48,025 bases of DNA, taken from NCBI RefSeq assembly GCF_900101115.1, contig NZ_FNFU01000020.1, positions 1 to 48,025 on the forward strand, read 5' to 3'. A program made the translations under genes and the position numbers. Source of the stretch: Cryobacterium psychrotolerans. GTDB taxonomy: Bacteria; Actinomycetota; Actinomycetes; Actinomycetales; Microbacteriaceae. The notes below the pieces were generated by a model, which saw nothing but the letters and a program-made list of their open reading frames with translations, searched no databases and was not told the DNA's origin. Each line of letters opens with the position of its first letter. Position 1 is the first letter of the stretch. Shown piece after piece: positions 2,704-44,628 of the stretch.

Positions 2704-4226
2704 TGGCGACGCGCAAGCCGCGCACGCCCTGGACACTGCGCCGGAGGCTCGTCCTGGCCGTCGTCGGCCTCCTGGCGCTGGTGAGCCTGGCCATTGGGCT
2801 GGCGAGCGTCGCGATCCTGCGAGCCTCCCTGCTCGACGGCCTCGATGGGCGCCTCGCATCCGCCGCCGACCGGTCGAGCGCTGTCCTCGGCAGCGACGGG
2901 GACGGCGACGAAGACCACCCGCGGCCCACGCCCTCGGCCGAGGTCATCCTGAACGGTCCGGCCCAACCGCCAGGAACGCTCGCCCTGGTCTTCGACGGCA
3001 ACACGATCACGGCCGGCTACACCAACGACGAGAGCGGCGAAATCGAGTCGCTGACCGCCGAGCAGATCAAGCTCCTCGGTGAGAACCTCGACCAGTCGGC
3101 GCCGGTCACCATCGACCTCGGGGGAGGACTCGGGGACTATCGGGTCGTCGCGCAGACGAGCAGGACGGGCACGCTGTACATCCTCGGCTACCCGCTGTCC
3201 ACGGTGAACGGCACGGCCGCCCAGTTGGCCGTGATCATCGGCGTGGTCTCGCTCATCGGCCTGCTCGTCGTCGCCGTCGTGGCGGCCTGGATCGTGCGGC
3301 TGGCGCTTCGCCCGCTCGACCGGGTGACCGACACCGCCGCGCGGGTGGCCGAACTGCCGCTCGACCGGGGTGCCGTCGACCTCGTCGACCGGGTGCCGGC
3401 CGCCGACACCGACCCGCGCACCGAGGTCGGCCGCGTGGGATCCGCGCTCAACCGGATGCTCGACCACGTCGACCTCGCCCTGGAAACGCGCCACGCCAGC
3501 GAGAGCAAGGTGCGCCAGTTCGTCGCGGATGCCAGCCACGAACTGCGCACGCCGCTGGCCTCCATCCGCGGCTACGCCGAGCTCACCCGCCGGAGCGGTC
3601 AGGAACTCCCGCCCGACGCCATCCGCTCGCTGGACCGGATCGAGTCCGAGTCCATCCGGATGTCCGGCCTGGTCGAAGACCTGCTGCTGCTGGCCCGCCT
3701 CGACGAGGGCCGCGAGCTCGAACGCGAGCCGGTTGACCTCACGCGCATGCTCGTCGACGCGGTCAGTGACGCGCACGCGGCCGGGCCCGAGCACAGCTGG
3801 AATCTCGACCTGCCGGAGGAGCCGATCGAGGTGACCGGGGACGCGAGCCGGCTGCACCAGGTGTTGGCCAACCTCCTGGCCAACGCCCGCGTGCACACGC
3901 CGCCGGGCACGAGCGTCACGACCGCGCTCGCCGCGGAGGGCGACCGCGCCGTCGTGACGGTGACGGATGACGGCCCCGGCATTCCCGAGAACCTGCGGTC
4001 GACCCTCTTCGAGCGGTTCGCCCGCGGCGACAGCTCACGCTTCCGGGGGACCGGCAGCACCGGTCTGGGGCTGGCCATCGCCCGGGCCGTCGTCACCGCG
4101 CACAGCGGCGAGATCACCGTCGAGAGCCGCGAGGGGTTCACCCGGTTCCGGGTGACGCTTCCCCTCGACCAGACGCAGGTCGGCAACCCCGATCTGCGGA
4201 CCTCGGGCGCCTCGCATCACAACTGA
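2703..4226 (+). CDS. Two-component sensor histidine kinase
   Basis: This 507-aa membrane kinase has a first transmembrane helix at about 15-38, an extracytoplasmic sensor loop (about 40-172), and a second helix at about 173-198. A HAMP linker follows to about 262, then a HisKA domain with the phospho-accepting H279 (DASHELRTPLASI). The ATPase domain shows an N-box (NLLANARVHT), G1 (DDGPGIP), F-box (FERFARGD) and G2 (GLGLAIARAV). It phosphorylates the regulator encoded just upstream, with which it overlaps by one base. The sensor loop contains an acidic DGDGDED patch near 65-71; whether this binds a ligand or ion is unknown. The stop codon lies at the left foot of a long palindrome (4224-4280) that may terminate transcription. 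Confidence 0.95.
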   Translation: MATRKPRTPWTLRRRLVLAVVGLLALVSLAIGLASVAILRASLLDGLDGRLASAADRSSAVLGSDGDGDEDHPRPTPSAEVILNGPAQPPGTLALVFDGNTITAGYTNDESGEIESLTAEQIKLLGENLDQSAPVTIDLGGGLGDYRVVAQTSRTGTLYILGYPLSTVNGTAAQLAVIIGVVSLIGLLVVAVVAAWIVRLALRPLDRVTDTAARVAELPLDRGAVDLVDRVPAADTDPRTEVGRVGSALNRMLDHVDLALETRHASESKVRQFVADASHELRTPLASIRGYAELTRRSGQELPPDAIRSLDRIESESIRMSGLVEDLLLLARLDEGRELEREPVDLTRMLVDAVSDAHAAGPEHSWNLDLPEEPIEVTGDASRLHQVLANLLANARVHTPPGTSVTTALAAEGDRAVVTVTDDGPGIPENLRSTLFERFARGDSSRFRGTGSTGLGLAIARAVVTAHSGEITVESREGFTRFRVTLPLDQTQVGNPDLRTSGASHHN

Positions 4227-4280
4227 GTTGCGGACAAACACCCTTCCCCGGGCCAGGGAAGGTACATTCTCCGCAACTCA
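4224..4280. repeat. Long palindrome, copy A of a four-copy family (11-nt loop)
   Basis: The left arm begins TGAGTTGCGGA (4224-4234) and the right arm ends TCCGCAACTCA (4270-4280), pairing perfectly over 11 bp. Pairing continues with interruptions through ACCCTTC to GAAGGT, leaving an 11-base spacer at 4247-4257. The element starts on the kinase stop codon and lies between that gene and the convergent marR gene, so it is placed as a bidirectional terminator, although it lacks a U-tract. Related copies are at 14089, 42697 and 44556. Confidence 0.85.
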
Positions 4281-4319
4281 ACCCCTGGCGCACGCGGCCT
4301 TGGCTAGCGCGGCGCGGTA

Positions 4320-4757
4320 CTACTGCGCGTCGGGCGCGTTCAGCCGGGCGATCAGCGCGGCGAACTGCCGGAGGTCCGCTTCGGGCCAGGTGCCCAGCCG
4401 CCGGTTCACCACGGCGATCTTGCCGGCGCGCAGCTCGGCCAGCTTCTGCTCCGCGGCGGGCGTCAGAGCGAGGAACCGGGCCCGGCCGTCGCTGGGGTCC
4501 GCCTGGATCTCGAGCAGGCCCAGCTCCTGGAGCTGAGCCGCCTGCCGGCTGACGACGCTGCGGTCAACGGTGAGGGCCTCGGCGACGGCGCTGGCATGGG
4601 TCGGGCCGCTGCGCGAAAGCAGACGCAGCAGCTTCAGCCCGAACGGCTGCAGGGCCGGGTCGATGCTCAGCGCGGCATCCCGGATACTCCTCCGGATGAG
4701 GCCGGCGAGGATGTTCATCTGCTCCTCGACCTCCGCGAGTGCCTCGGCCGTGGTCAT
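4320..4757 (-). CDS. MarR-family transcriptional regulator
   Basis: The 145-aa protein has the MarR winged-helix layout: an N-terminal dimerisation helix, a recognition region around residues 53-80 (HASAVAEALTVDRSVVSRQ), the wing with the conserved DPSDGRARFLALT pattern, and a C-terminal dimerisation helix. Its ATG overlaps the stop of the upstream efflux gene as ATGA (4754-4757), so it is translationally coupled to the transporter. It probably represses this operon through the palindromes at 6481-6530 and is released by a drug-like ligand. That regulatory link is inference from gene order and operator position. Confidence 0.92.
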   Translation of the reverse strand: MTTAEALAEVEEQMNILAGLIRRSIRDAALSIDPALQPFGLKLLRLLSRSGPTHASAVAEALTVDRSVVSRQAAQLQELGLLEIQADPSDGRARFLALTPAAEQKLAELRAGKIAVVNRRLGTWPEADLRQFAALIARLNAPDAQ

Positions 4758-6463
4758 TTCACGACTTCGATCGACCCGGTCGGGTGCGCCTCACCGACCG
4801 GGGGCAGGGCTGCGGCCGCGGCGCTCACCTCGATCAGGATGTCTTCCGCGTCTTCGATCTCGCGCTGGTGCACGGATCCTTCGGTCTGAGCGAGTTCAAT
4901 CGCGTTCTTGCGCCCGAGCGGAAGGTTGGGCAGGAGCGCGACCATGATCAGGGTGACCACGGCCAGCGGGGCCCCGAGCAGGAAGACGGTGCCGACGCCC
5001 GAGCCGTACGAGGATTCGACGAGCACGCGGATGGCGTCCGGAAGCTCCGACACGTGGGGGATCGCCCCGCTGCCGAGGGCCTTGCCCGCGGCGACCTGGT
5101 CGGCGGGGCTGAGCGAGCCGATGCCGTCCGTGATCGTCGAGGCGACCGTGCTGCCGAGCACCGAGCCGAGCACCGAGATGCCGATCGTGCCGCCGATGCT
5201 GCGGAAGAACGTCACGGCGCTGGTGGCCACGCCGAGGTTCTTCACCTCGATGGCGTTCTGCACGACCAGGACGAGGTTCTGCATGAGCATCCCGAGGCCG
5301 GCGCCGAGGACGAACATGTACATTCCGACGAGCACGAGGTTCGTGTCGTACTGAAGCGTGCCGAGAAGCAGCAGGCCGGCGATGACGAGCACGCTCCCCC
5401 AGACCAGGATCGCCTTCCATTTGCCGGTGCGGCTGACCATGCTTCCGAAGACGGTCGACGAGATGAGCAGGCCGCCCATCATCGGGATGGTCAGCAGGCC
5501 CGACTGGGTGGGGGTCGCGCCGCGCGCAAGCTGCATGTACTGGCTCAGGAACACCGAGGTGCCGAACATGGCGACGCCCACCGACAGGCTGGCCACGGTG
5601 GCCAGGGTGAAGGTGCGGTCCTTGAACAGGTCGAGCGGGATGATCGGCTCCTTCGCCCTGAACTCCACGAACACGGCGGCGATCAGCAGGGCAGCCGCGC
5701 CGGCCACCATGACGAAGGACTGGGCGGATGCCCACTCGAACTGGTTGCCGGCCTGGGTCACCCAGATCAGGAGCAGGGAGACCCCGGCCGCGATGAGCAC
5801 GGCGCCGAGGTAATCGATGCGGGCGACGCGCCTGGGCCGCTTGGGCAGGTGCAGCGTCATCTGCAGCAGGATGATGGCGATCATGGCGATCGGCAGCGCG
5901 ATGAAGAAGTTCCAGCGCCAGCCGAACGCATCCGTCACAACGCCGCCGAGCAGCGGGCCGCCGACGGTGCCGAGGGCCATCACGCCGCCGAACAGGCCCG
6001 CGTACTTGCCGCGGTCCCGGGGGCTGATGATGTCGGCCATGATGATCTGGCTGAGCGCCGCGAGGCCGCCGGCGCCGAGGCCCTGCAGCACGCGGAATCC
6101 GATCAGTGTGTTGGTGTCCTGCGAGAAACCGGCCAGGGCCGACCCGATCACGAAGATCGCCAGCGCGAGCTGGATGAGCAGCTTGCGGTTGAACAGGTCG
6201 GCGAATTTACCCCAGATGGGCGTGCTGACGGCAGTGGCGAGGAGCGTCCCGGTGACGACCCAGGTGTACGCGGACTGGTCGCCCCCCAGATCCGCGATGA
6301 TGAGCGGCAGTGACGTGGCCACGACCGTGCCGGCCAGGATCGCGACGAACATGCCGAGCAGGAGGCCGGAGAGGGCCTCCAGAATCTGGCGCTGGGTCAT
6401 GGTTCCGTCGGTGGTGACGGGGTGCGTGGGGGCCCGGCGGACCTTCTGCGTTCTGGGTGACAT
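4754..6463 (-). CDS. MFS multidrug efflux transporter, DHA2 (14-helix) family
   Basis: The protein has about 14 predicted transmembrane helices, typical of DHA2 drug:H+ antiporters such as QacA/Stp. The loop 2-3 motif A is present as GKFADLFNRK and motif C as GGPLLGGVVTD. I place the start at 6463 (569 aa) because this ATG follows a good GGAG site; an upstream in-frame ATG at 6487 would extend it by 8 residues and overlap operator sequence. The C-terminal tail of about 50 residues is hydrophilic and acidic (EDAEDILIEV). The gene is first in an operon with marR and has a clear TTGACA-N17-TATGGT promoter upstream. The substrate is unknown; drug or solvent export is the family expectation. Confidence 0.92.
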   Translation of the reverse strand: MSPRTQKVRRAPTHPVTTDGTMTQRQILEALSGLLLGMFVAILAGTVVATSLPLIIADLGGDQSAYTWVVTGTLLATAVSTPIWGKFADLFNRKLLIQLALAIFVIGSALAGFSQDTNTLIGFRVLQGLGAGGLAALSQIIMADIISPRDRGKYAGLFGGVMALGTVGGPLLGGVVTDAFGWRWNFFIALPIAMIAIILLQMTLHLPKRPRRVARIDYLGAVLIAAGVSLLLIWVTQAGNQFEWASAQSFVMVAGAAALLIAAVFVEFRAKEPIIPLDLFKDRTFTLATVASLSVGVAMFGTSVFLSQYMQLARGATPTQSGLLTIPMMGGLLISSTVFGSMVSRTGKWKAILVWGSVLVIAGLLLLGTLQYDTNLVLVGMYMFVLGAGLGMLMQNLVLVVQNAIEVKNLGVATSAVTFFRSIGGTIGISVLGSVLGSTVASTITDGIGSLSPADQVAAGKALGSGAIPHVSELPDAIRVLVESSYGSGVGTVFLLGAPLAVVTLIMVALLPNLPLGRKNAIELAQTEGSVHQREIEDAEDILIEVSAAAAALPPVGEAHPTGSIEVVK

Positions 6464-6480
6464 CGTGCTCCTGCTGATAA

Positions 6481-6530
6481 TTGACAAGAGTCAACCATAA
6501 CCATGTAGTGGACCTGTGTCAACTACATGG
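6481..6530 (-). promoter_or_regulatory. Promoter and probable MarR operators of the efflux operon
   Basis: On the minus strand, TTGACA (6522-6517) and TATGGT (6499-6494) are separated by 17 bases, a near-ideal sigma-70 promoter. Two inverted repeats cover it: CCATGTAGT (6501-6509) with ACTACATGG (6522-6530), 9-bp perfect arms spanning the -35 and spacer, and TTGAC-N4-GTCAA (6481-6494) just after the -10. This is the expected layout for repression by the co-encoded MarR protein, which is inference. Confidence 0.7.
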
Positions 6531-6617
6531 CCGGGTCGGCGGCGGCGCCCCGAACGGCATCCGCTCGCCCGGCCCGCGTATGCTGTAGGCCGTTCTATTT
6601 AGCCGGAGGAAGCCCCT

Positions 6618-7235
6618 GTGACGAACTACCCCCGCCTGGTGGCATTCGACCTGGATGACACTCTGGCCCCGTCGAAATCACCGCTCGACCCGCGCATGGC
6701 CGCGCTGATGCTGCGCCTGCTCGACGTGGCGGAGGTCTGCGTGATCTCCGGCGGGCAGCTCGCGCAGTTCCGGATGCAGGTCGTCGACACCCTCGAGGGT
6801 GCCACCGCCTCCCAGCTCGAACGACTGCACCTCATGCCCACCTGCGGCACGCAGTACTACCGCTTCTCGGACGGCGTCCTGGCGCAGGTCTACGCGCAGA
6901 GCCTCTTCGCTGACGAGAAGAAGAACCGGCTGCGCGCGGCCGTGCAGGCCCTGTTGCCCGACCTCGAGGTGCGCTCCGGCGGGTCGACGTCCGTCGACAT
7001 CACTCGGCGCGGCATCGACAAGGCCTACGGGATGACGCAACTCGCCGAGCTGACCGGCGTGCCCCTGGATGACATGCTCTTCGTCGGTGACCGGCTCGAC
7101 CCGGACGGAAACGACTACCCGGTGAAGGCGCTCGGCGTCGCATGCCACTCGGTCCGCGACTGGCAGGACACCGCGGGATACCTCGAGACGCTCATTCCCA
7201 CCCTCCTGGCAACACCCGCCCGGGCCGGAGCCTGA
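6618..7235 (+). CDS. HAD-IIB family phosphatase
   Basis: The 205-aa protein has HAD motif I DLDDT (nucleophile D11, general acid D13), motif II near ISGG, a motif III lysine around K135 (GIDKAYG) and motif [12 protein letters not shown] (about 157-166), which marks the IIB (Cof/phosphomannomutase-like) group. It is likely a cytosolic sugar-phosphate or nucleotide phosphatase; the substrate is not predictable. It starts with GTG at 6618, seven bases after GGAGGA. It stands alone between the efflux operon and the ribosomal protein operon. Confidence 0.85.
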
Positions 7236-7260
7236 GCCGGAGCGGCGGCAGGGTGCCGAT

Positions 7261-7290
7261 TTGCACCCGGGCCGCCGCATCCGGTAGCGT
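7261..7290 (+). promoter_or_regulatory. Promoter of rplJ-rplL
   Basis: TTGCAC (7261-7266) and TAGCGT (7285-7290) are separated by 18 bases and fit an actinobacterial TANNNT promoter. Transcription would begin near 7297, just before the conserved L10 leader. Confidence 0.55.
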
Positions 7291-7296
7291 GGGCAA

Positions 7297-7475
7297 CAGC
7301 CAAAGACCGCCGGTTATTGCCTTGCCCAGAGATGGACAGAGCAATCGAAGGTTCATTCACGTGAACGGCCCGCGCAGGAATCGAAGTAGAAGTGCAGTGA
7401 AAGCTGCTCCCGCTCCGGCCTTGCGCTGGAGCTTTTTTCATGTCTGCGCCCCGGGCTACCGGCACATGAAAACTA
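7297..7475 (+). ncRNA. Ribosomal protein L10 leader
   Basis: The roughly 180-base untranslated stretch before rplJ begins with the AGACCGCCGGTTATTGCC block and contains a GCGCAGG segment, as in actinobacterial L10 leaders bound by the L10(L12)4 complex. It ends in an intrinsic terminator-like hairpin followed by six T residues. Binding of excess L10-L12 would favour termination and so limit operon expression. Assignment rests on position, conserved blocks and the attenuator; a covariance-model search was not possible here. Confidence 0.75.
7412..7438 (+). terminator. Attenuator hairpin in the L10 leader
   Basis: GCTCC (7412-7416) pairs with GGAGC (7428-7432) and is followed by TTTTTT (7433-7438). 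This is one of the few canonical rho-independent signatures in the window. It lies before rplJ, so it should act as a conditional terminator. An upstream AAGCTGCTCC segment could compete for the same right arm as an anti-terminator. Confidence 0.75.
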
Positions 7476-7486
7476 AGAGGAGCGCC

Positions 7487-8002
7487 ATGGCGAACAAGGA
7501 AGCAACGGTCGCCGAGCTTACGGAGAAATTCGAGAGCTCGACCGCCGTTCTGCTCACCGAGTACCGCGGTCTCACTGTTGCGAAGCTCAAGGAGCTGCGC
7601 ACGTCCATCAGTGAGGACGCCACGTACGCCGTGGTAAAGAACACGCTGACCAAGATTGCGGCCAACAAGGCCGGCATCTCGTCGTTCGACGACGAGCTTG
7701 TCGGTCCGTCCGCAATCGCATTCGTGCACGGAGACCCTGTCGCCGTCGCGAAGACCCTGCGTGCCTTTACCAAGGCAAACCCTCTCCTGGTGGTTAAGGG
7801 CGGTTACTTCGACGGTAACCCGCTGACCGCCGCAGAGGTAGGCAAGCTCGCCGACCTCGAGTCCCGTGAGGTGCTGCTGGCCAAGCTGGCCGGCGCCTTC
7901 AAGGCCTCGCTGTTCGGAGCCGCATATCTGTTCAACGCACCGCTGTCGAAGGCTGTTCGCACCATCGACGCGCTGCGTGAGAAGCAGGAGTCCGCGAACT
8001 AG
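7487..8002 (+). CDS. rplJ: 50S ribosomal protein L10
   Basis: The 171-aa protein begins [15 protein letters not shown] and carries the L10 landmarks [13 protein letters not shown] and VVKNTL. L10 anchors L7/L12 dimers to 23S rRNA through its C-terminal helix to form the ribosomal stalk that recruits translation factors. The start at 7487 is preceded by AGAGGAG (7476-7482); the frame is open further upstream to 7142, but that part is the untranslated leader. It is co-transcribed with rplL 51 bases downstream and controlled by the L10 leader. Confidence 0.97.
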
Positions 8003-8053
8003 GCATCGGCCTGGCATCGCGGTGAGTAACTAAGAAACTATAAGGAGAAAATC

Positions 8054-8437
8054 ATGGCAAAGCTTTCCACTGAAGAACTGCTTGAGCAGTTCAAGGGCCT
8101 GACCCTCATCGAACTCTCCGAGTTCGTCAAGGCGTTCGAGGAGACCTTCGAGGTCACCGCCGCTGCTCCGGTCGCCGTTGCCGGCGCTGCCGGTCCCGCC
8201 GCCGCTGCTGAAGAGGTCGAAGAGCAGACCGCTTTCGACGTCATCCTTGACGCCGTCGGCGACAAGAAGATCCAGGTCATCAAGGTTGTGCGCGAGCTCA
8301 CCGCCCTGGGCCTCGGCGAGGCCAAGGCAGTCGTCGACGGCGCTCCGAAGGCCGTCCTCGAAGGCGTCTCGAAGGAAGCAGCCGAAAAGGGCAAGGCTGC
8401 CCTCGAGGCTGCCGGCGCCACCGTCATCCTCAAGTAG
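8054..8437 (+). CDS. rplL: 50S ribosomal protein L7/L12
   Basis: The 127-aa acidic stalk protein has the standard layout: N-terminal dimerisation/L10-binding helices (residues 1-35), an Ala/Pro/Val-rich hinge (about 36-56), and a C-terminal factor-binding domain containing [16 protein letters not shown]. It begins with ATG at 8054 after AAGGAG. It is the second gene of the rplJL operon, followed by two strong hairpins that probably end transcription. Confidence 0.97.
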
Positions 8438-8534
8438 TCACGCCCCGCAAGGGGTACTGATTGAGGCGTGACCGGCGTTAGCCGTGTGAACGCAGAGGGC
8501 GTCGCATCCGTATGGATGCGGCGCCCTCGCTTCG
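8438..8534 (+). terminator. Double hairpin terminator after rplL
   Basis: Directly after the rplL stop, TCACGCC (8438-8444) can pair with GGCGTGA (8465-8471), and inside it CCCC-GCAA-GGGG forms a GNRA-capped stem. A second, stronger hairpin pairs GAGGGCG and CGCATCC (8495-8509) with GGATGCG and CGCCCTC (8514-8528) around a GTAT loop, followed by GCTTCGTT. There is no full U-tract, as is common in actinobacteria. Confidence 0.7.
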
Positions 8535-8707
8535 TTAACCGGTGCCGGCCCTTCGGGGGAATCGGGCGCTGATCGGGCGATCCCCTGCCCCCGCTCGAGG
8601 GTATCGATTTGGCATCCACTCGCCGCAGGCCTTGCCGCGCTCGCGCGCCGCCTCTAGGTTGGTGGGCGAAAGGCTTGCCATGCGTTCGGCAGATCCTTGA
8701 GGCCACG
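8535..8707. other. Intergenic stretch without recognisable gene
   Basis: Between the rplL terminator and the sugar-transporter promoter I see no convincing coding frame or strong structure. TTGAGG at 8697-8702 is a possible -35 element for the downstream operon. Confidence 0.4.
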
Positions 8708-8727
8708 TGGAAGCGCTTTCTTATACT
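8697..8727 (+). promoter_or_regulatory. Promoter with LacI-type operator before the sugar ABC operon
   Basis: TATACT at 8722-8727 is a good -10 box. Just upstream, TGGAAGCGCTTTC (8708-8720) contains the palindromic AAGCGCTT core with a central CG typical of LacI-family operators. It lies between the possible -35 (TTGAGG, 8697) and the -10, where bound repressor would block polymerase. No dedicated LacI gene is adjacent, so the regulator is encoded elsewhere. Confidence 0.55.
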
Positions 8728-8744
8728 CAACGAGGAGGAATCGC

Positions 8745-10085
8745 ATGAGCGTGAAGAATCATCCCCGACTCATCATCCCGACCGCCGCTCTCGCCGCCAT
8801 CGGGCTCGCCCTGACCGGCTGCACGGGCGACACCGCCGGGGGAGACAAGGCGAACACCGAGTGTGCCGACTACGACGCCTACGGGACGTTCGACTCCGGC
8901 ACGGAGGTCAACATCTACGGCACGATCCTCGAGGTTGAGGCCGACCGCCTGCAGGCGTCCTGGAAGGACTTCGAAACCTGCACCGGCATCGACGTCGTGT
9001 ACGAGGGCAGCGCCGAGTTCGAGGAGCAGATCAACGTTCGGGTCCAGGGCGGGAAACCGCCGGACCTCGGGATCACGCCCCAGCCCGGACTCGTGGCCGA
9101 CCTGGCCCGGTCAGGCGCGCTGTTGCCGGCGCCGAAGGCCGTCGCGGACAACGTAAAGGAGTTCTGGTCCGAGGACTGGGCCGGTTACGGCACGGTCGAC
9201 GGGGAACTCGTCGGTTCGCCGCTGATGGCGAGCGTCAAGGGCTACGTCTGGTACTCGCCCTCCACGTTCAAGGACAACGGCTGGGAGGTTCCCACCACCC
9301 TCGACGAGCTCAGCGCCCTCACCGACAAGATCGCCAAGACCGAGACCAAGCCGTGGTGCGTCGGCTTCGCCTCAGGAGTCGCAACGGGCTGGCCCGGAAC
9401 GGACTGGGTGGAGGACATGGTGCTTCGCCTGTCTGGACCCGAGGTGTACGACCAGTGGGTCACCCACGAGATCCCGTTCAACGACCCGGCCATCGCCGAG
9501 GCCTTCGACGAGGTCGGTGGCTTCATCAAGGACGAAGCCAACGTGAACGGCGGCCTCGGCGCGATCAACTCGATCGCGACAACGGAGTTCGGTGACGCCG
9601 GGCTGCCCGTGCTCGAGGGAACGTGCGCCCTGCACCACCAGGCCACCTTCTACGAGGGCTTCTGGCCCGATGGAACAGAGGTCGCACCGGATGGTGACGT
9701 GTGGGCGTTCATCCTCCCCGGAACCGAGGCGGACGCGAACGCGGTCACCGGCGGTGGCGAGATCGTCGCAGCCTTCAGCGACTCGAAGGAGACCGTCGCG
9801 GTGCAGACCTACCTGTCGAGCGACACCTGGGCGAACAACCGGGTGAAGCTGGGCGGCGTGATCAGCGCCAACAAGGGCCTCGACCCGGACAACGCGAGCA
9901 GTGAGCTGCTCTCGACCAGCGTCGAGATCCTGCAGAACCCGGACACGACGTTCCGCTTCGACGCGTCGGACCTCATGCCAGGCGCCGTGGGTGCCGGATC
10001 GTTCTGGAAGGGAATGGTCGACTGGATCGGCGGCAAGAGCACCGCCGCGACCCTCGACTTCATCGAGGGAACCTGGCCCAAGTAG
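8745..10085 (+). CDS. aglE: Alpha-glucoside-type ABC transporter substrate-binding lipoprotein
   Basis: The 446-aa product is a family-1 (MalE/AglE-type) sugar-binding protein. A lipoprotein signal ends in LALTGC with the lipidated cysteine at about residue 26, so it is anchored on the outer face of the membrane. Conserved body segments include VVYEGSAEFEEQINVRVQGG and KPPDLGITPQPG, which fit the alpha-glucoside (AglE) branch. I start at 8745 after GAGGAGGA; the frame opens earlier at 8697, but that overlaps the promoter. Two permease genes follow. Substrate assignment (maltose, trehalose or sucrose-like) is by resemblance only. Confidence 0.85.
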   Translation: MSVKNHPRLIIPTAALAAIGLALTGCTGDTAGGDKANTECADYDAYGTFDSGTEVNIYGTILEVEADRLQASWKDFETCTGIDVVYEGSAEFEEQINVRVQGGKPPDLGITPQPGLVADLARSGALLPAPKAVADNVKEFWSEDWAGYGTVDGELVGSPLMASVKGYVWYSPSTFKDNGWEVPTTLDELSALTDKIAKTETKPWCVGFASGVATGWPGTDWVEDMVLRLSGPEVYDQWVTHEIPFNDPAIAEAFDEVGGFIKDEANVNGGLGAINSIATTEFGDAGLPVLEGTCALHHQATFYEGFWPDGTEVAPDGDVWAFILPGTEADANAVTGGGEIVAAFSDSKETVAVQTYLSSDTWANNRVKLGGVISANKGLDPDNASSELLSTSVEILQNPDTTFRFDASDLMPGAVGAGSFWKGMVDWIGGKSTAATLDFIEGTWPK

Positions 10086-10175
10086 CAGCCCGGACCTCGG
10101 GGGCCGTGCGGCATCCGCCACGCGGCCCCCGAGGGCAACTCGCGTGACAGCACTCAATGGGGAGGCGGATTTCTC

Positions 10176-11147
10176 GTGACCACAACCGATCTCATCGGCA
10201 AGATCATCCAGGTCCTCGTGGGCCTCGCCGCCTTCGCGGCGGTCCTCGGGCTCGTCCTGTTCTTCATCGACCGGGCGCCCAAGAAGGGCCGGGACGTCAT
10301 CCAGCTGGTCGCGTTCCTGCTGCCGGCCATGATCCTGGTCGCCATCGGGCTGGTCTACCCGGCGATCCGAACGACCATCACCGCCTTCGGCGACAAGTCA
10401 GGCAACTTCATCGGCCTGGACAACTTCGTCTGGATGTTCACCCAGCCCGAGGCGCTGATCACCCTCCGCAACACCGTCATCTGGGTGATTCTCGTCCCGC
10501 TGGTGTCCACGATCGTCGGGCTCGCCTACGCCGTCTTCATCGACAAGTCGCGGGGGGAGAGGATCTACAAGGTCCTCGTCTTCATGCCGCTGGCCATTTC
10601 GTTCGTCGGCGCCGGCATCATCTGGAAGTTCGTCTACGAATACCGTCCGGCCGAGCGGGACCAGATCGGCCTGCTCAACCAGTTCCTCGTCTGGTTCGGC
10701 CAGGAGCCCGTGCTCTGGCTGCAGACGGAGCCGGTCAACACTCTGCTGCTCATCGTGGTGCTGATCTGGGTGGAGACCGGGTTCGCCATGGTCGTGCTGT
10801 CGGCCTCGATCAAGGGCGTCCCGGTCGAGCAGGTCGAGGCTGCGGAACTCGACGGGACGAACGCGTGGCAGCGCTTCCGCAACGTGACGCTGCCCAGCAT
10901 CCGCGGCGGCCTCGTCGTCGTTGTGACGACCATCACCATCGCCACGCTGAAGGTCTTCGACATTGTGCGGACGATGACCGGCGGCAACTTCAACACCAGC
11001 GTGGTCGCCAACGAGATGTACACGCAGGCGTTCCGCGCGGTCCAGCCGGGCCGTGGCGCCGCGCTGGCCCTCATCCTGTTCGTGATGGTCCTGCCGATTG
11101 TGATCTACAACGTTCGCGTCATGCGTCAGCAGAAGGAGATCCGATGA
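10176..11147 (+). CDS. aglF: Sugar ABC transporter permease (AglF-like)
   Basis: This 323-aa inner-membrane protein has about seven or eight predicted helices and the cytoplasmic EAA loop EAAELDGTNAWQRFRNVTLP near residue 228, which docks with the ATPase. It begins with GTG at 10176, ten bases after GGGGAGG. The end overlaps the next permease gene as ATGA, so the two membrane subunits are coupled for equal synthesis. It follows the binding-protein gene by 90 bases. No ATPase gene is present nearby; CUT1 systems in actinobacteria commonly share a MsiK-type ATPase encoded elsewhere. Confidence 0.88.
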   Translation: MTTTDLIGKIIQVLVGLAAFAAVLGLVLFFIDRAPKKGRDVIQLVAFLLPAMILVAIGLVYPAIRTTITAFGDKSGNFIGLDNFVWMFTQPEALITLRNTVIWVILVPLVSTIVGLAYAVFIDKSRGERIYKVLVFMPLAISFVGAGIIWKFVYEYRPAERDQIGLLNQFLVWFGQEPVLWLQTEPVNTLLLIVVLIWVETGFAMVVLSASIKGVPVEQVEAAELDGTNAWQRFRNVTLPSIRGGLVVVVTTITIATLKVFDIVRTMTGGNFNTSVVANEMYTQAFRAVQPGRGAALALILFVMVLPIVIYNVRVMRQQKEIR

Positions 11148-12136
11148 GCGACAACGTGGTCGACCTGCCTCTTCCCGGCGCCGCCAAGCCCCGGGACACC
11201 ACCTTCGAGGTCGCCGCCGCCGACCTCACCAAGGCCGGCCGGGTCAAGCGACGCCTCACCTCCCGGACCGCGACCATCGCCTCCCTGGTGATCGCCGTCA
11301 TCTGGACGATCCCCACCTTCGGTCTCCTGCTGTCCTCGTTCCGGCCGGAGGAGCTGATCCGGACGACGGGATGGTGGACGATCTTCCAGAATCCCGGTTT
11401 CACCCTCGACAACTACCGGGACGTGCTGTTCTCCTCGAGTTCGTCGGCGCCGCAGCTGGGCAGTTACTTCGTCAACTCCCTGGCGATCAGCATCCCGGCC
11501 ACGATCTTCCCGCTGGTGCTCGCCTCGATGGCCGCGTACGCCTTCGCGTGGATCAAGTTCAAGTGGAGCGGCGCGCTCTTCGTGTTCATCTTCGCGCTGC
11601 AGATCGTGCCGATCCAGATGGCGCTGATCCCGCTGCTTCAGATGTTCACCACGGCGCTCCAGCCGATGCAGGACCAGATTCACGCCGTCATCCCGATCAT
11701 CCCGGAAGACACCTACCTGCAGGTCTGGGTCGCGCACACGATCTTCGCCCTGCCGCTGGCCATCTTCCTGCTGCACAACTTCATCTCGGATATTCCCTCG
11801 GAAGTGATCGAGGCTGCCAAGGTCGACGGGGCGAGCCACAGCCAGTTGTTCTTCCAGATCGTGCTGCCGCTGGCCCTGCCGGCCATTGCCTCCTTCGCGA
11901 TCTTCCAGTTCCTCTGGGTCTGGAACGACCTGCTCGTGGCGCTCGTCTTCTCCGGCGGCACGGCGGATGTCGCGCCGCTGACCCAGCGATTGGCCGAGCT
12001 CAGTGGAAACCGAGGCCAGGACTGGCAACGCCTGACGGCTGGGGCATTCGTGTCTCTCGTGGTGCCGCTGATCGTGTTCTTCAGCCTGCAGCGATACTTC
12101 GTCCGCGGCCTGCTCGCGGGGTCGACCAAGGGGTAG
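11144..12136 (+). CDS. aglG: Sugar ABC transporter permease (AglG-like)
   Basis: The 330-aa protein is the second membrane subunit of the importer. An extended hydrophilic N-terminus of about 45 residues is followed by six predicted helices and the EAA loop EAAKVDGASHSQLFFQIVLP. The ATG at 11144 overlaps the preceding stop (ATGA). An open frame running through from 10157 is a frame artefact, because the segment before 11144 is out of frame with the first permease. The operon ends here without an ATPase or glycosidase gene. Confidence 0.9.
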   Translation: MSDNVVDLPLPGAAKPRDTTFEVAAADLTKAGRVKRRLTSRTATIASLVIAVIWTIPTFGLLLSSFRPEELIRTTGWWTIFQNPGFTLDNYRDVLFSSSSSAPQLGSYFVNSLAISIPATIFPLVLASMAAYAFAWIKFKWSGALFVFIFALQIVPIQMALIPLLQMFTTALQPMQDQIHAVIPIIPEDTYLQVWVAHTIFALPLAIFLLHNFISDIPSEVIEAAKVDGASHSQLFFQIVLPLALPAIASFAIFQFLWVWNDLLVALVFSGGTADVAPLTQRLAELSGNRGQDWQRLTAGAFVSLVVPLIVFFSLQRYFVRGLLAGSTKG

Positions 12137-12185
12137 CTCCCCGGCAGGGGAATGGCGGGTCGGCCATCGCGCTTAGGGTAAGCGT

Positions 12186-14048
12186 ATGAGTGGAATGCAG
12201 GGCGGCGGCAGGTCGCGCTCCCGCGTGAGCGGCGGGGATGTGGCGGCCCAGCGCGCCGAGAATGCCGAGGCTCCGCGCATCCCGAATCTGCTCCGGCGGA
12301 TACTCGGACTGTTCGCGCCGCACCGCCCGGCCCTCATCGTCACGATCGTGCTCGTGCTCATCGGCGCCGCGATGTCGGTGCTCCCGCCGCTGCTCACCCA
12401 GCGCGCCTTCGATGAGGGGCTCTTCCCTCAGGACGGCCCGCCGGACCTCGAGCGGCTGGCCTTCCTCGTCGGGCTGATGATCGCTGTCTACCTCGGCAGC
12501 GTGCTGCTCGGCGTCTGGCAGACCTGGCTGACGTCCACCGTCGGCAACACCGTGATGGGCGCCCTCCGGGTGCGCCTGTTCACCCATCTTCAGGCGATGG
12601 AACTCAGCTTCTTCACGAAGACCAAGACCGGCGTCATCCAGTCGCGCCTGCAGAACGACGTCGGCGGCGTGGCTGGCGTGCTCACCAACACGATCTCCAG
12701 CGTGCTCGGCAACATCGTCACCGTGATCGCCGCGTTCGTGGCCATGCTGCTGCTCAACTGGCAGCTGACGATCGTCGCCGTCATCCTGATGCCCATCCTC
12801 GTGATCGCGCAGCGCCGGGTGGGCCAGGTGCGTGCCCGGATCGCCTCGAAGACGCAGGAATCGCTCTCCGACATGACCGCGATCACCCAGGAGACCCTGA
12901 GCGTCTCCGGCATCCTGCTCTCGAAGAGCTTCACCCGGCAGCAGACGGAGATCAGGCGCTACGCCGACGAGAACGACAACCAGATCCGGCTGCAAATCAG
13001 CCAGCAGATGAGCGGCCAGTGGTTCTTCGCGATGGTCAGCCTGTTCCTCTCCAGCATCCCGGCCATCGTGTACCTCGTGGCCGGCGCGCTCATGGTCAAC
13101 GGCCAGACGGACGTCACGCCCGGCACGATCGTCGCCTTCACGACCGTGCAGGCCCGGCTCCTGTTCCCGCTCCTCGGGCTGATGCGGGTCGCGCTCGACC
13201 TGCAGACCTCGAGCGCGCTGTTCGCCCGGATCTTCCAGTACCTTGACCTGGTTCCGGCGATCAGCGACGCACCGGCGGCGCAGGCCGTGCCGGCCGAGGG
13301 CCCGGATGTCGGCCGGGTTGAGTTCGACCGGGTCACCTTCCGCTACCCGGATGCCGCCGCCGACTCCCGCCCCACCCTCGACGACGTCTCCTTCACGATC
13401 GAGCCCGGCGAGTTCGCGGCCTTCGTCGGACCGTCGGGGGCCGGCAAGACCACCGTCTCCTATCTCATCCCGCGGTTCTACGAGGTCGCGGCCGGGCGAG
13501 TGCTGTTCTCCGGCGTCGACGTGCGGGAACTGGAACAGAAGTCGCTCGTCTCCCACATCGGCATCGTCAGCCAGGAGACCTACCTCTTCCACGCGACAAT
13601 CGCCGAGAACCTGCGCTACGCGAAGCCCGACGCGACACCTGAAGAGCTCGAGACGGCCGCGCGGGCCGCGAACATCCACGACACGATCGCATCCTTTCCC
13701 GACACCTACGACACGGTGGTGGGTGAGCGCGGCTACCGACTGTCCGGCGGCGAGAAGCAGCGGATCGCGATCGCGCGGGTGCTGCTCAAGAACCCGGAAG
13801 TGCTCATCCTCGACGAGGCGACGAGCGCCCTGGACTCCATCTCGGAGCGCGTCGTGCAGGAGGCGCTCGACACCGCCAGCCGCGGGCGCACCACCATCGC
13901 CATCGCGCACCGCCTCTCGACCATCGTCACCGCCGACGTCATCTTCGTCGTCGACGGGGGCCGGATTGTCGAACGCGGCAGGCACGCCGAGCTGCTCGCG
14001 GCGAACGGCGTGTACGCCCGCCTCTACTCGGAGCAGATCACCGACTGA
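12186..14048 (+). CDS. ABC exporter, fused permease and ATPase (MdlB/MsbA-like)
   Basis: The 620-aa half-transporter has an N-terminal six-helix exporter domain (about 40-350) and a C-terminal nucleotide-binding domain. Walker A is GPSGAGKTT near residue 415, the signature LSGGEKQ near 520, Walker B VLILDEATSALD near 540 and the H-loop AHRLST near 578. It would act as a homodimer exporting a lipid, peptide or drug; the substrate is unknown. AGGG at 12174-12177 lies a few bases before the ATG; TAGGGT there could equally be a -10 of a leaderless transcript. Codon use matches its neighbours. A strong palindrome follows 40 bases after the stop. Confidence 0.93.
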   Translation: MSGMQGGGRSRSRVSGGDVAAQRAENAEAPRIPNLLRRILGLFAPHRPALIVTIVLVLIGAAMSVLPPLLTQRAFDEGLFPQDGPPDLERLAFLVGLMIAVYLGSVLLGVWQTWLTSTVGNTVMGALRVRLFTHLQAMELSFFTKTKTGVIQSRLQNDVGGVAGVLTNTISSVLGNIVTVIAAFVAMLLLNWQLTIVAVILMPILVIAQRRVGQVRARIASKTQESLSDMTAITQETLSVSGILLSKSFTRQQTEIRRYADENDNQIRLQISQQMSGQWFFAMVSLFLSSIPAIVYLVAGALMVNGQTDVTPGTIVAFTTVQARLLFPLLGLMRVALDLQTSSALFARIFQYLDLVPAISDAPAAQAVPAEGPDVGRVEFDRVTFRYPDAAADSRPTLDDVSFTIEPGEFAAFVGPSGAGKTTVSYLIPRFYEVAAGRVLFSGVDVRELEQKSLVSHIGIVSQETYLFHATIAENLRYAKPDATPEELETAARAANIHDTIASFPDTYDTVVGERGYRLSGGEKQRIAIARVLLKNPEVLILDEATSALDSISERVVQEALDTASRGRTTIAIAHRLSTIVTADVIFVVDGGRIVERGRHAELLAANGVYARLYSEQITD

Positions 14049-14088
14049 CGCTCTCCCCGCCCTCCACTCTCCTTATGCACTCCGAGCG

Positions 14089-14151
14089 GGTTGAGTTGCG
14101 GAAAGAGTACCTTCACTGTCGCCACGAAGGTACTTTTTCCGCAACTCAACC
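14089..14151. repeat. Long palindrome, copy B of the four-copy family (near perfect)
   Basis: The left arm GGTTGAGTTGCGGAAA (14089-14104) pairs perfectly with TTTCCGCAACTCAACC (14136-14151). After a single G/T position the stem continues with AGTACCTTC (14106-14114) and GAAGGTACT (14126-14134). The loop is 11 bases (14115-14125). This is the best-paired member of the family, with a 26-position stem. It sits between the convergent ABC exporter and DUF305 genes and can act as a terminator in both directions. Confidence 0.9.
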
Positions 14152-14173
14152 AGGGTGGCGCGCGGGAGCCCGG

Positions 14174-14857
14174 CTAGGCGCGGGCGGCGAGCATGCTCGT
14201 CATGAGCTCGATCTCGGAGTTCTGGCTGGTGACCACGGCCTGCGCGAACGACCGCACCGGCCCGTTGTCGCTGCGGTCGAGCACACCCTCGGCCATCTCG
14301 ACCGCCCCCTGGTGGTGAGCGATCATCAGGGTCAGGAAGATCCGTTCGGCCTGCGTCCCGGATGCCGCGGTCAGCTCGGCGACCTGGGCGTCGGTGGCCA
14401 GCCCCGGCATGGCCTGGCCCTCGCCCGCCGCCGCCGAATGACCGTGCTCCTCGCCGGAGCGGCCCGCGCGGGTCATCCACATCATCGCCGGCTCGCGGCC
14501 GGCCTGGGGCAGGCCCCACTGGGTGAGCCAGCCGAAGAGCTGGCCGGACTGCTGCGCCTGGGTCGCGGCGATGTCGTAGGCGAGCAGGCGCACAGCCGGG
14601 TCATCCGTGCGGTCGCGCACGACCAGCGCCAGCTGGACGCCCTGGTTGTGGTGCACCTGCATATCGCGGGCGAATCCGGCCTCCGCGCTGGTGCCGGAGG
14701 GCGGGGCGTCGGCGAGCGTGCTCAGCCGGCCGAGCGAGAACGAGGCGATCCCGACGACGGCGGCGATCGCGACGACGGCGAGGATCACGGCAACGCGTGC
14801 GGGAAGACCCGGGATCCGAGGCACCGGAGTCGGCCTAGGAGACCTTGCCGGGGGCAT
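14174..14857 (-). CDS. DUF305 family membrane-anchored protein
   Basis: The 227-aa product has one N-terminal membrane segment (VAVILAVVAIAAVVGIASF) and two four-helix DUF305 units, recognised by the HHNQG motif after FARDMQ and by MIAHHQGAVEMAEGVL near the C-terminus. Histidines and methionines in these motifs are thought to bind copper or silver in relatives such as CopM; here that is inference. The start at 14857 (GGGGGAA upstream) overlaps the 3' end of the DUF3105 gene by 23 bases, so the two are co-translated. A longer open frame to 14971 lies inside that neighbour and is rejected. Confidence 0.85.
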   Translation of the reverse strand: MPPARSPRPTPVPRIPGLPARVAVILAVVAIAAVVGIASFSLGRLSTLADAPPSGTSAEAGFARDMQVHHNQGVQLALVVRDRTDDPAVRLLAYDIAATQAQQSGQLFGWLTQWGLPQAGREPAMMWMTRAGRSGEEHGHSAAAGEGQAMPGLATDAQVAELTAASGTQAERIFLTLMIAHHQGAVEMAEGVLDRSDNGPVRSFAQAVVTSQNSEIELMTSMLAARA

Positions 14858-15530
14858 CGATTCCCCCGGTGCACGGTGCTCCGATCTCCGGGGCGAGACC
14901 GCCCTGCCAGTACTCCTCGAAGAACGCGGGGATGCGCTTGTCCGAGGCCGAGTCGAGCTGCAGCTGTGCATTCCAGCCGCTGAGCACGATCGGCGAGGGC
15001 AGGTCGTCAGCGGGGGAGAGCACGACGAAGGTGGAGGGCACCTGCAGCCGGAGCGACTCGAGCTCGGCCTTGCTGATCGTGGGGTCGTAGGTCACCCAGA
15101 TCGCGCCGTGCTCGAGCGCGTGCACCGCATTCTCGTTGGGGACCGGCTCCGTGTAGACGCCGCAGTTCAACCAGGTCGCGCTGTGCTCTCCGCCGGTGGG
15201 CGGGGTCTCCGGGTAGTCAACCGGCGTTTCCACGTGCCCGGCGGGATTCTTGAACGTCTCCACGCCCTCGATCGAGGCGCCCTCGCTGCCTGGCTTGTAC
15301 GTCGCATCCGGGGCCTTCTGCGGAGTCATGACCACGGACAGGACCACGATCGTGATGACCGCGAGGGCCGCGGCGATTCCGGCGATGAGCCAGATCCGGC
15401 GCCGGCGGGCGCTCCGCTTCTGCTGCCGGTGGTACTCCTCGAGCTTCTTCGCACGCTGCGCGGCACGCTGCTGCTTGACGCTCGCGGCGCTGGCGTTCGG
15501 CGGCGTGGCGGACGGTGGTGCAGGGGTCAC
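14835..15530 (-). CDS. DUF3105 family membrane protein
   Basis: The product has a basic N-terminal stretch (QQKRSARRRR), one transmembrane helix and an extracytoplasmic DUF3105 domain with GGEHSATWLNCGVYTEP and HALEHGAIWVTY. I choose the GTG at 15530 (231 aa) because AGAGG lies six bases upstream and a TAGAAT -10-like element (15561-15556) lies just before it. In-frame ATGs at 15572 and 15614 would lengthen it. DUF3105 genes often neighbour DUF305 genes in actinobacteria, as here, where they overlap by 23 bases. The biochemical role is unknown. Confidence 0.82.
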   Translation of the reverse strand: MTPAPPSATPPNASAASVKQQRAAQRAKKLEEYHRQQKRSARRRRIWLIAGIAAALAVITIVVLSVVMTPQKAPDATYKPGSEGASIEGVETFKNPAGHVETPVDYPETPPTGGEHSATWLNCGVYTEPVPNENAVHALEHGAIWVTYDPTISKAELESLRLQVPSTFVVLSPADDLPSPIVLSGWNAQLQLDSASDKRIPAFFEEYWQGGLAPEIGAPCTGGIDAPGKVS

Positions 15531-15742
15531 GATGGGCCTCTCTCGGTGGACTTCAATTCTATCCGAACGCATCCGCTCGCCCTCTGGGCTGCCTTCGGGG
15601 TCTCTCACAGCCACTTCACAGTCTGGTGGCTGCCTTCGGCCGTCAAGAGAACGTCAATAGAATGGGACCGTGTTCGACTGGGCGTCGTGCCCGTTGCCCC
15701 CGTGGCCTGGATGCCCGGCGTTGCCCCACGACGAAGGGTCCC

Positions 15743-17104: not shown

Positions 17105-17122
17105 ACAGAGAGAAGAATCCCC

Positions 17123-18277: not shown

Positions 18278-18383
18278 CGGCTCTGCCAGGAAGGCGCCGT
18301 CGGCCCGGCGGCCGGCGCGCCTCGGGGAGCATATGCCCGCGGCGGCATCCGACGAATTCGCCGCGCTGTCGGCGGAATAATTC

Positions 18384-18446
18384 ATGTGACCGTCACATTC
18401 GCCGTGCATAATTGACGTGCGCTCACAGTTGTGACCGTGCACATGC
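18384..18446 (+). promoter_or_regulatory. Two AraR-type operators before the LacI-family regulator gene
   Basis: ATGTGACCGTCACAT (18384-18398) is a perfect palindrome around one central base. A second, weaker copy, TGTGACCGTGCACA, lies at 18431-18444. CATAAT at 18407-18412 is a likely -10, so site 1 would overlap the -35 region and site 2 the early transcript. A matching site precedes araB at 19600-19615. This indicates autoregulation by the protein encoded just downstream. Confidence 0.75.
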
Positions 18447-18461
18447 GAGCAAGGTATCTCC

Positions 18462-19481: not shown

Positions 19482-19557
19482 CCAACCGAATTCGAACGCG
19501 CAACAGGTGCCCGCCCGCCTCACCGTGAGGGCGTTACCAAAACGAGATGTTTCGGGG

Positions 19558-19615: not shown

Positions 19616-19666
19616 TGGACCGCAACATTGCCGCATCAGCGGCACCTCAGACAAGGGAGTCGATTC

Positions 19667-32470: not shown

Positions 32471-32510
32471 CTGGCCAGGTCGACGCAGGGTGCGCCCATC
32501 CGGGCGGATC

Positions 32511-32561
32511 AGCGAACCGGCACAGTGAGCGAACCGGCACAGTCAGCGAACCGGCACAGTG
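32511..32561. repeat. 17-bp tandem repeat, three units, overlapping a gene 3' end
   Basis: AGCGAACCGGCACAGTG occurs at 32511 and 32545 and with a final C at 32528, giving three abutting units. The stop codon of the VOC gene (32543-32545) lies in the array, so the last residues of that protein come from repeat DNA. This parallels the 16-bp arrays at 87-214 and 46470-46501. Confidence 0.9.
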
Positions 32562-32986
32562 AGCCGCGAAGTGAAGCGAATGAGGTACCCGTCCGGGTCC
32601 TGCACCAGGAACTGGGACACTCCGGCCTCGGTGCTGCCGGTCTGGTACCACTTGTCTTCGGGGGCCATGAAGAGCGGCCAGCCCGATGCCGCGAGGCGTT
32701 CGACCAGGGGCGTGATCGCCGGCACCGAGACCTGGAAATTCACGCCGCGGCCCAGGGGCCTTTCGAGGGTGTCGGCGACCCAATTCCGACCGACTCCGAT
32801 CTGCTCGAGCATGATCTGCGCCGTTCCGTACTGAAGGTAGGCGAAACCCTCCTGCGGACGGTCGTAGAGGATCTCGAAACCGCACAGAGCAACCCAGAAA
32901 TCCAGGCTCGTGGCGAGATCGGTGATCAGGAGTTCGGGGACGAGGCCAGGGAACGCGGGGGCAGTATCTCCCGATGCGGAGTTCAT
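32543..32986 (-). CDS. VOC/glyoxalase superfamily protein (bleomycin-resistance-like)
   Basis: The 147-aa protein shows the paired beta-alpha-beta-beta-beta modules of the vicinal oxygen chelate fold: PELLITDLATSLDFWVALCGFEI at the N-terminus, then ERLAASGWPLF and QFLVQDPDGYLIRF at the C-terminus with the usual D-P-(D)-GY-L-I-R-F ending. Substrate unknown; relatives include antibiotic-binding proteins and dioxygenases. I start at 32986 (GGGAG upstream); the frame is open further but runs through a hexanucleotide repeat and the neighbouring gene. The C-terminal TVPVR lies in the 17-bp tandem repeat. Confidence 0.82.
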   Translation of the reverse strand: MNSASGDTAPAFPGLVPELLITDLATSLDFWVALCGFEILYDRPQEGFAYLQYGTAQIMLEQIGVGRNWVADTLERPLGRGVNFQVSVPAITPLVERLAASGWPLFMAPEDKWYQTGSTEAGVSQFLVQDPDGYLIRFTSRLTVPVR

Positions 32987-42554: not shown

Positions 42555-42679
42555 AAGCCGACCCTACCGGGGACCGGTCGCAGCGTGCTGGGAGCCGACG
42601 GCGCTCAAGGCAAGGGCCAGGTCGTTCAGGAGCGGGCGATCCGCGCCCATGCCGCCGCGGCCGAGCACCTCCTGGAGTC

Positions 42680-42769
42680 GATCGCCCGGGGTGAGCGGTT
42701 GAGATGCGGAGAAACACCCTTCGTTGGGACGCTGAAGGTTGTTTCTCCGCAACTGAACTGGATTGCCGG
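42680..42769. repeat. 90-bp direct repeat (right-hand partner at 44539) containing palindrome copy C
   Basis: This segment is almost identical (I count 5 differences in 90) to 44539-44628 in the same orientation. At its core is palindrome copy C: left arm from GGTTGAGATGCGGAGAAA (42697) to ACCCTTC (42722), 11-base loop (42723-42733), right arm GAAGGTT...CCGCAACTGAACT (42734-42759), a 26-position stem with a few mismatches. It lies just downstream of the glucoamylase-like gene. Confidence 0.9.
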
Positions 42770-42804
42770 CGGATGCCGGCGCAGGAGCGCGGGCGTTGGC
42801 GTGG

Positions 42805-44406: not shown

Positions 44407-44455
44407 GGCGGTGCAGATCCTTCGTGTCGTCGTTGACGTTCGTGACTGACCCCCG

Positions 44456-44484
44456 AGTGTAAGCGCATACAAATGCCCGTGCAA
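44456..44484 (-). promoter_or_regulatory. Promoter with LacI-type operator for the glucoamylase-like gene
   Basis: On the minus strand TTGCAC (44484-44479) and TACACT (44461-44456) are 17 bases apart. Between and over the -10 lies the operator TGTAAGCGCATACA (44458-44471), palindromic except for one pair and centred on CG as in LacI-family sites. This implies sugar-responsive repression by a regulator not encoded here. Confidence 0.7.
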
Positions 44485-44538
44485 CCTTTTCCCGCGCTCT
44501 GCGGGCGTCGCTGAGCAGCGGGATGCCAGCGCCAGGCA

Positions 44539-44628
44539 GATCGCCCGGGGTGAGAGGTTGAGATGCGGAGAAACACCCTTCGTTGCGACGCTGAAGGTTC
44601 GTTGTCCGCAACTGAACTGGATTGCCGG
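44539..44628. repeat. 90-bp direct repeat (partner of 42680) containing palindrome copy D
   Basis: Near-identical to 42680-42769. The palindrome core has its left arm at 44556-44581 (GGTTGAGATGCGGAGAAA...ACCCTTC), an 11-base loop GTTGCGACGCT (44582-44592), and its right arm at 44593-44618. The right arm has diverged slightly (CGTTG for GTTTC), weakening the stem. It lies upstream of the glucoamylase-like gene, between it and the divergent SHOCT gene. Confidence 0.9.

Follow-up and report, generated by a model that had tools for sequence, protein, structure and literature searches.

A high-copy family of long intergenic palindromes in Cryobacterium psychrotolerans, with a possible role as two-way gene-end hairpins

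The window considered here is a stretch of 48,025 nucleotides from Cryobacterium psychrotolerans (Microbacteriaceae; NCBI RefSeq assembly GCF_900101115.1, contig NZ_FNFU01000020.1, positions 1 to 48,025 of the forward strand), which is contig C22 of a genome of 3.25 Mb in 45 contigs. It carries four copies, here called A to D, of a long palindrome whose two arms enclose a centre of 11 nt, and these belong to a family that lies between genes and mostly close behind their 3' ends. In this article, we describe the family, follow it through the genus and beyond, and weigh the possibility that its members act as transcript ends for the genes on either side.

Copy A fills a palindrome frame of 67 nt (4219-4285; centre CCCGGGCCAGG at 4247-4257) between convergent genes, and the TGA stop codon of a plus-strand histidine kinase gene, which ends at 4226, lies inside it. 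Copy B, a near-perfect palindrome (14087-14153; centre ACTGTCGCCAC at 14115-14125), is likewise approached from both sides, by an ABC transporter gene on the plus strand (ending at 14048) and a DUF305 gene on the minus strand (ending at 14174), in an intergenic stretch with a folding z-score of -8.1. Both copies are also present in C. tagatosivorans. Copy C (42695-42761; centre GTTGGGACGCT at 42723-42733) stands in a tandem context, 43 nt past the 3' end, at 42805, of a glucoamylase-domain gene on the minus strand, and copy D (44554-44620; centre GTTGCGACGCT at 44582-44592) is flanked by divergent genes. These last two are not independent, because they lie in the two units (42680-42777 and 44539-44636) of one 98-nt repeat, family D5, which are 92% identical. 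The four copies align without gaps over 67 nt, and the four palindromes, their loops and their gene contexts are all as the original prediction had given them. It had also warned of look-alike reading frames of the EGxFSATQP type, and the codons of the right arm do read EGTFSATQ directly.

When the pattern TTGCGGA-N7-CCTTC-N11-GAAGG-N7-TCCGCAA is searched through the genome with at most three mismatches, it is found at 85 places per strand and the reversed pattern at none, which places the four palindromes beyond chance and supplies the further copies that the prediction called for. One of the 85 entries (C35:4488) is degenerate, overlaps another copy and is excluded from every copy count, and the 84 full copies are spread over 22 contigs. 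The longer consensus TTGAG-TTGCGGA-N7-CCTTC-N11-GAAGG-N7-TCCGCAA-CTCAA describes at least 84 copies, again with no match to its reversed form, and the aligned copies have the ends GYTGAG...CTCAAC/CTCAGC. Measured against the 24 fixed bases, 33 copies have no mismatch, 35 have one, 15 have two and a single copy has three. The geometry is strikingly rigid: with anything from 0 to 60 free bases allowed between an exact TTGCGGA and TCCGCAACT, all 67 matches (34 + 33; 39 distinct places) measure 51 nt, so that the constant loop length claimed from four copies holds in a search in which the length was free. The ends of the 84 centres come mostly from a few types (GTT, AAT/ATT and CCG/CCC), and combinations of the same type, which would pair, occur below expectation in this genome. 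Short tandem repeats of the element's own end sequence (CTGAA and CTCAGTAA) adjoin some copies (C24:15811 and C20:156568).

Some copies are asymmetric, and in 13 of the 14 such copies genome-wide, copies A and D among them, the left arm is the variant one (AAACAC/AAACAA or similar), although the orientation of a contig is arbitrary. The common left-right polarity ascribed to the four window copies is only partly meaningful, because copy B is nearly symmetric. On contig C32, all seven asymmetric copies point one way regardless of gene strand, hinting at a polarity relative to the chromosome; GC skew gave too weak a signal for orienting the contigs.

The placement of the family was counted with genes predicted from codon usage by a simple caller that had been trained on the window, for 83 copies, one copy at a contig edge being left out and those sharing one junction (C32:64178/64376, C32:99463/99629 and C35:4235/4405) being counted singly. 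None of the 83 lies within a gene, and the description of the palindromes as similar to repetitive extragenic palindromic (REP) elements is apt in that they form a high-copy intergenic family. Convergent junctions hold 43 copies, tandem junctions 27 and divergent junctions 13; of the 259 junctions in a 305-kb sample of this genome, only 46 are of the convergent kind, which makes the excess of copies there significant (Fisher P = 6e-9). The flanking 3' ends (n = 113) lie at a median distance of 27 nt, 82 of them within 50 nt, and the flanking 5' ends (n = 53) at a median of 107 nt. Six flanking genes, with the one at copy A among them, terminate exactly on a stop triplet that belongs to the element itself. 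The same preference is seen elsewhere: 24 loci of other Cryobacterium species divide into 12 convergent, 12 tandem and no divergent junctions (four of 28 loci, L106, L111, L124 and L125, being excluded from this count), and 20 loci in 15 other genera into 11 convergent, seven tandem, one divergent and one unreadable (L290).

Among the genomes scanned, the sequence pattern proper is confined to the genus. With each species represented by one genome (GTDB r220), 44 of 44 matching stretches were from Cryobacterium, and with at most two mismatches the pattern is present in 28 of 199 genomes, this one included, Cryobacterium being the only one of 110 sampled genera to have it. A covariance model built from 46 copies, mostly of this genome, reaches further. 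Of the 57 Cryobacterium genomes, 46 give model matches, with both strands counted and no more than 90 candidates per genome scored. In the family sample, 30 of 199 genomes match; they represent 24 of 85 genera when the home genus is counted, and hence 23 of 84 other genera, where the matches are far weaker (best E-value 1.4e-14, against 3.1e-23 here) and many are single ones of about 1e-4 to 1e-6. Twenty of these other-genus matches, from six genomes, each form one long hairpin of -45 to -71.5 kcal/mol for 88 nt; in most, a centre of about 10-12 nt follows CTTC or CCTC and is itself followed by GAAG or GAGG, and the arms are quite different, yet mutually paired. A second set with gene context (20 loci from 18 genomes of 15 other genera) is mostly of like geometry, the exceptions being the differently built L287 and L290 and the imperfect L285. 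Microbacteriaceae beyond Cryobacterium carry hairpins of this geometry with compensated arms. A palindrome with the centre GTCGACACGAC, or nearly its reverse complement, is found in C. algoricola, C. glucosi, C. breve and genome G005 (L077, L079, L089 and L105), apparently at the same place in all four and with arm changes on both sides; it is probably an old copy. Rfam had no match in the window and, at 13 loci, sub-threshold matches only, nearly all to microRNA precursor models. Full-text literature searches listed no title or opening of an abstract concerned with palindromic repeats in Cryobacterium or in any Microbacteriaceae. In the available text of a Cryobacterium genome paper (PMC7381226), 'palindromic' is used only in the name CRISPR, and the main text of a 2025 REP survey (PMC12306157), as far as available, contains neither 'Microbacter' nor 'Cryobacterium'.

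How the elements evolve in place can be followed in the sister species C. tagatosivorans (G006), which has a large set of its own, with 43 distinct copies read. The comparison covered 660 kb of its genome, several stretches of which were chosen for their model hits, with no base-by-base filter. It yielded 18 comparable places, the element being present in 15 and absent from three; two of the absences concern one junction, and the third, C31:155009, is cleanly occupied in this genome and empty in C. tagatosivorans, which has a small hairpin there. C. tagatosivorans also carries a pair of copies, about 630 bp from each other, at a place where a single copy stands here. Across the 15 orthologous pairs, substitutions amount to 14/300 in the boxes, 36/210 in N7, 47/240 in the outer arm and 42/165 in the centre. 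The boxes are thus held and the centre drifts (boxes against centre, P 3e-10); a single copy, whose alignment spans an indel, accounts for six of the 14 box substitutions.

Between lineages, the arms also change together. Eighteen other Cryobacterium genomes supply 66 copies, retrieved with N7 left free, in which 377 of 462 N7 cells are paired, compared with 47% after shuffling across genomes and 75% within genomes, and none of 2000 shuffles reaches the observed count. An alignment of 32 sequences (22 from Cryobacterium and 10 from other genera; L281, L283, L286, L287, L289 and L294-L296 were omitted for length or gaps and three Cryobacterium sequences were added) shows changes on both sides in 24 of 28 pairs, with a covariation score of 0.529 against 0.168 when shuffled. 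The first alignment, of 46 copies mostly from this genome, gave a small excess (80.4% paired cells, 77.9% shuffled). The compensated arms indicate that pairing is kept by selection between lineages. Likewise, the two arms could be kept alike if near-palindromes are corrected against a template during replication.

The junction of copy B provides a different kind of evidence. Its orthologous place was located in 30 genomes, 14 of which keep both genes, and folding was tested in 13 of them, this one included, with 100 shuffles per genome (the 356-nt stretch of G003 was left out). In 11 of the 13 genomes the intergenic sequence folds better than its shuffles (z -2.4 or lower). The hairpins themselves are of several kinds. 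This genome and C. tagatosivorans have the family described above (hereafter F1); G013, G018, G032, G036 and G048 have a second family, F2 (TGGGCCC-N8-AAGGTGGGCCC or nearly so; e.g., L183, L185, L199, L206 and L209), in which a further hairpin, GGGCCCA...TGGGCCC, often lies inside; elsewhere the hairpins are short or unrelated. The best hint that a hairpin is wanted at this junction is that different palindrome families occupy it. Over the genus, F1 and F2 nearly exclude each other: exact F2 matches occur in 15 of 57 Cryobacterium genomes, all with 0-5 F1 model matches, and 34 of the 42 genomes devoid of F2 have at least eight F1 matches (Fisher P = 2e-8, with no correction for phylogeny). Family F3, the third, has the form GCGCACCTT-N7-GCGGGCGCA-N8-TGCGCCCGC-N7-AAGGTGCGC, or close variants of it, over 58 nt, with exact matches in five of 57 Cryobacterium genomes (L256-L260) and paired changes in the N7 segments of most printed copies. 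In G033 and G054, one F3 copy follows the same ABC transporter gene, the neighbour there not being DUF305.

We propose, with a probability of roughly one half, that the repeated family consists of two-way gene-end hairpins that have no U-tract ("I-shaped") and would act as transcript ends. According to the available text of a review (PMC12288462), I-shaped hairpins without a U-tract, at most 50 bp from the stop codon, have been reported in mycobacteria. It is the position of the copies, with 82 of 113 neighbouring 3' ends at 50 nt or less, and their lack of a U-tract, both of which fit that description, that led us to choose this reading. The hairpin would form in the RNA and either stop the RNA polymerase or protect the 3' end of the transcript from degradation, whichever strand is transcribed; a single copy, being symmetric, would do so for both genes of a convergent pair. 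Copy number would have risen by REP-like copying with the aid of a helper, or by recombination. That the hairpin acts in RNA is plausible.

Several observations weigh against this proposal. Downstream flanks have no TTTT within 15 nt (0/113), which rules out a canonical intrinsic terminator, and only one of the 113 has four or more T in its first 8 nt; the flanks are rich in G (43%). A terminator scan of positions 1-20000 gave eight sites, compared with 7.0 in shuffled sequence, and none at copy B; one site lies inside copy A, with part of the arm serving as the tail. Termination without a U-tract is itself disputed, since among the references of the same review (available part) one title declares the U-tract dispensable (2020) and another declares it required by the mycobacterial RNA polymerase (2014). 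The family cannot be the general terminator, since it occupies only six of 46 convergent junctions in the 305 kb (together with 7/165 tandem and 2/48 divergent ones); moreover, divergent genes, which have no 3' end at the junction in need of one, flank 13 of the 83 copies. The covariance model has no match in 11 of the 57 Cryobacterium genomes, and two of the 13 genomes tested at the copy B junction (G016 and G004) have no excess folding there. The covariation score of 0.529 leans towards pairing, because a hairpin model supplied its 10 other-genus sequences. At no stem position does pairing within this genome exceed what independent arms would give (smallest upper-tail P 0.30); column 17, for instance, is paired in 31 copies with 31.3 expected, and column 2, at the outer edge, in 14 with 22.9 expected. 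Selection on structure, as originally suggested from the conserved arms, is therefore seen between species and genera, in the 66 copies and the 32 sequences, but not within this genome, and the outcome named in advance as contrary to it, pairing broken as often as kept, is half realised, there being no covariation among the copies here. In transcript orientation, G-U is no commoner than A-C, neither in the 27 tandem copies of this genome (8 and 14) nor in 14 of 19 tandem loci elsewhere (13 and 11), so that the substitutions lend no support to selection for pairing at the RNA level.

A possible but unlikely alternative is that the family is a selfish element of the REP/REPIN type, devoid of host function, copied in trans and tolerated behind gene ends as the least harmful places. 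The swings in copy number within the genus, from 84 here to no model match in those 11 genomes, would suit such an element, as would the clean occupied/empty pair at C31:155009 and the inclusion of copies C and D in a 98-nt duplication; REPs of other phyla also favour 3' ends and convergent gaps (available text of PMC3733652). Against it, Y1_Tnp, the domain of IS200 and REP-associated transposases (RAYT) and the sole helper domain searched, is found in 0/57 Cryobacterium genomes and in five of 14 controls. This rules out a RAYT/IS200-type helper for the genus, and the RAYT that the original prediction proposed to look for is not borne out. Neither are solitary arms seen. In 543 of the 3247 kb, 171 arm matches lie in palindromes and nine outside, compared with 13 for the reversed pattern, and none of the nine has fewer than two mismatches; a narrower half-site pattern, which is based on the rarer variant of the arm and reaches about one third of the arms, has all of its 54 genome-wide matches in palindromes. 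DNA uptake signals are rejected on the same finding of no solitary arms in 543 kb. Finally, 15 of 18 places are common to the sister species, with the boxes kept and the centre drifting, which mere tolerance does not explain. The suggested mobilisation has one clean case of presence and absence in its favour, as against the 15 of 18 comparable places that are shared. A search of the flanks for a larger mobile unit gave diffuse matches only. The duplication holding C and D and the pair of C. tagatosivorans copies about 630 bp apart suggest that recombination and local duplication probably contribute to the spread.

Copying and function could also be combined. The palindromes might be a class of self-copying terminators, spread over the whole of the Microbacteriaceae and independent of a RAYT, which would replace other hairpins at gene junctions and then be selected for ending transcripts on two strands, different lineages running the competing families F1 and F2, the latter with its GGGCCC arms. 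We regard this wider scheme as rather doubtful.

It seems improbable, too, that the palindrome works at the level of DNA, as the site of a dimeric protein or as a cruciform, forming a roadblock or a supercoil sink between converging polymerases. Such a role would be in keeping with the independent variation of the arms in this genome, with the constant spacing, with the lack of a preference for G-U, and with the retention of the TGCGGA and CCTTC boxes in both arms at orthologous places, as if they were half-sites. The freedom of the arm sequence between genera, with pairing kept, argues the other way, as a single conserved protein would have had to co-evolve with its sites repeatedly. The centre follows no clear site logic either. 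In the 84 copies its first two positions pair below expectation (14, with 27.2-27.8 expected, and 17, with 27.1 expected) and the third somewhat above it (42 against 34.4, P 0.03), and in the 43 copies of C. tagatosivorans the avoidance at the first base (14/84 here) is unclear and not significant (10 against 14.1, P 0.12). The loop, described as variable in the prediction, does drift, but it is not simply free, given these under-paired first positions in this genome.

The weakest candidate is a miniature inverted-repeat transposable element (MITE), in which an 11-nt remnant would link the two terminal inverted repeats of an insertion sequence. The long inverted repeats, the short unconserved centre and the repetition in the genome would allow this, but we hold it to be highly improbable, since no lone arm of an insertion-sequence parent was seen in 543 kb or among the 54 half-site matches (about one third of the arms being within reach of that pattern), the centre is constant in length, and no target duplication is evident at the one clean empty place, a single site rather than a systematic survey.

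Among the systems already described, the REP/REPIN elements (GTAG and CGTC super-families) are similar in being high-copy intergenic palindromes with a preference for 3' ends and convergent genes, with species-specific variants, conserved ends and a variable centre (available text of PMC3733652 and PMC3116915). They differ in their shorter stems, of 5-13 bp (same sources), compared with about 25-28 bp here, and the present family has no unpaired GTAG/CGTC end tag in its consensus, has a fixed 11-nt centre, shows no solitary arms in 543 kb and belongs to a genus from which the Y1 transposase is absent. REP-type repeats without a dedicated transposase are, for the CGTC class, an open case in the available text of PMC3733652. 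The I-shaped terminators of mycobacteria resemble the family as hairpins of Actinomycetota with no U-tract, mostly at 50 nt or less from the stop codon (PMC12288462, available text); here, by contrast, the hairpins share one repeated sequence, of fixed geometry and with symmetric arms, and their action as terminators is predicted. The paired DNA-uptake-signal terminators of Neisseria and Pasteurellaceae share the arrangement as inverted pairs behind genes and the tail-to-tail enrichment, but these signals also occur singly, generally in at least 1,000 copies, and the arms of the present family are much longer (PMC1852404, in the part available).

The attC sites of integrons are long imperfect palindromes with a variable loop and with GTTRRRY/RYYYAAC core-site boxes. 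The outer boxes of the present family resemble this consensus, and the overall shape is similar; the family has its core-like boxes in the opposite order, and its copies are dispersed on 22 contigs instead of forming an array, for which reasons attC was rejected. Two other repeats of the window lie apart from the family: an array of 16-bp tandem repeats close to the contig start (72-214) and a direct repeat present three times with a spacing of 17 nt (32509-32564).

For the annotation of Microbacteriaceae genomes, this work supplies a family to be masked, because its arms can be read as open frames. For the biology of the genus, Cryobacterium offers a dense natural series, which runs from genomes with no match to one with at least 84 copies and includes occupied places, an empty place and rival families, and which is suited to asking how such palindromes multiply and whether transcript ends are set by them. 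The series also bears on the dispute over whether the RNA polymerases of Actinomycetota stop at hairpins without a U-tract.

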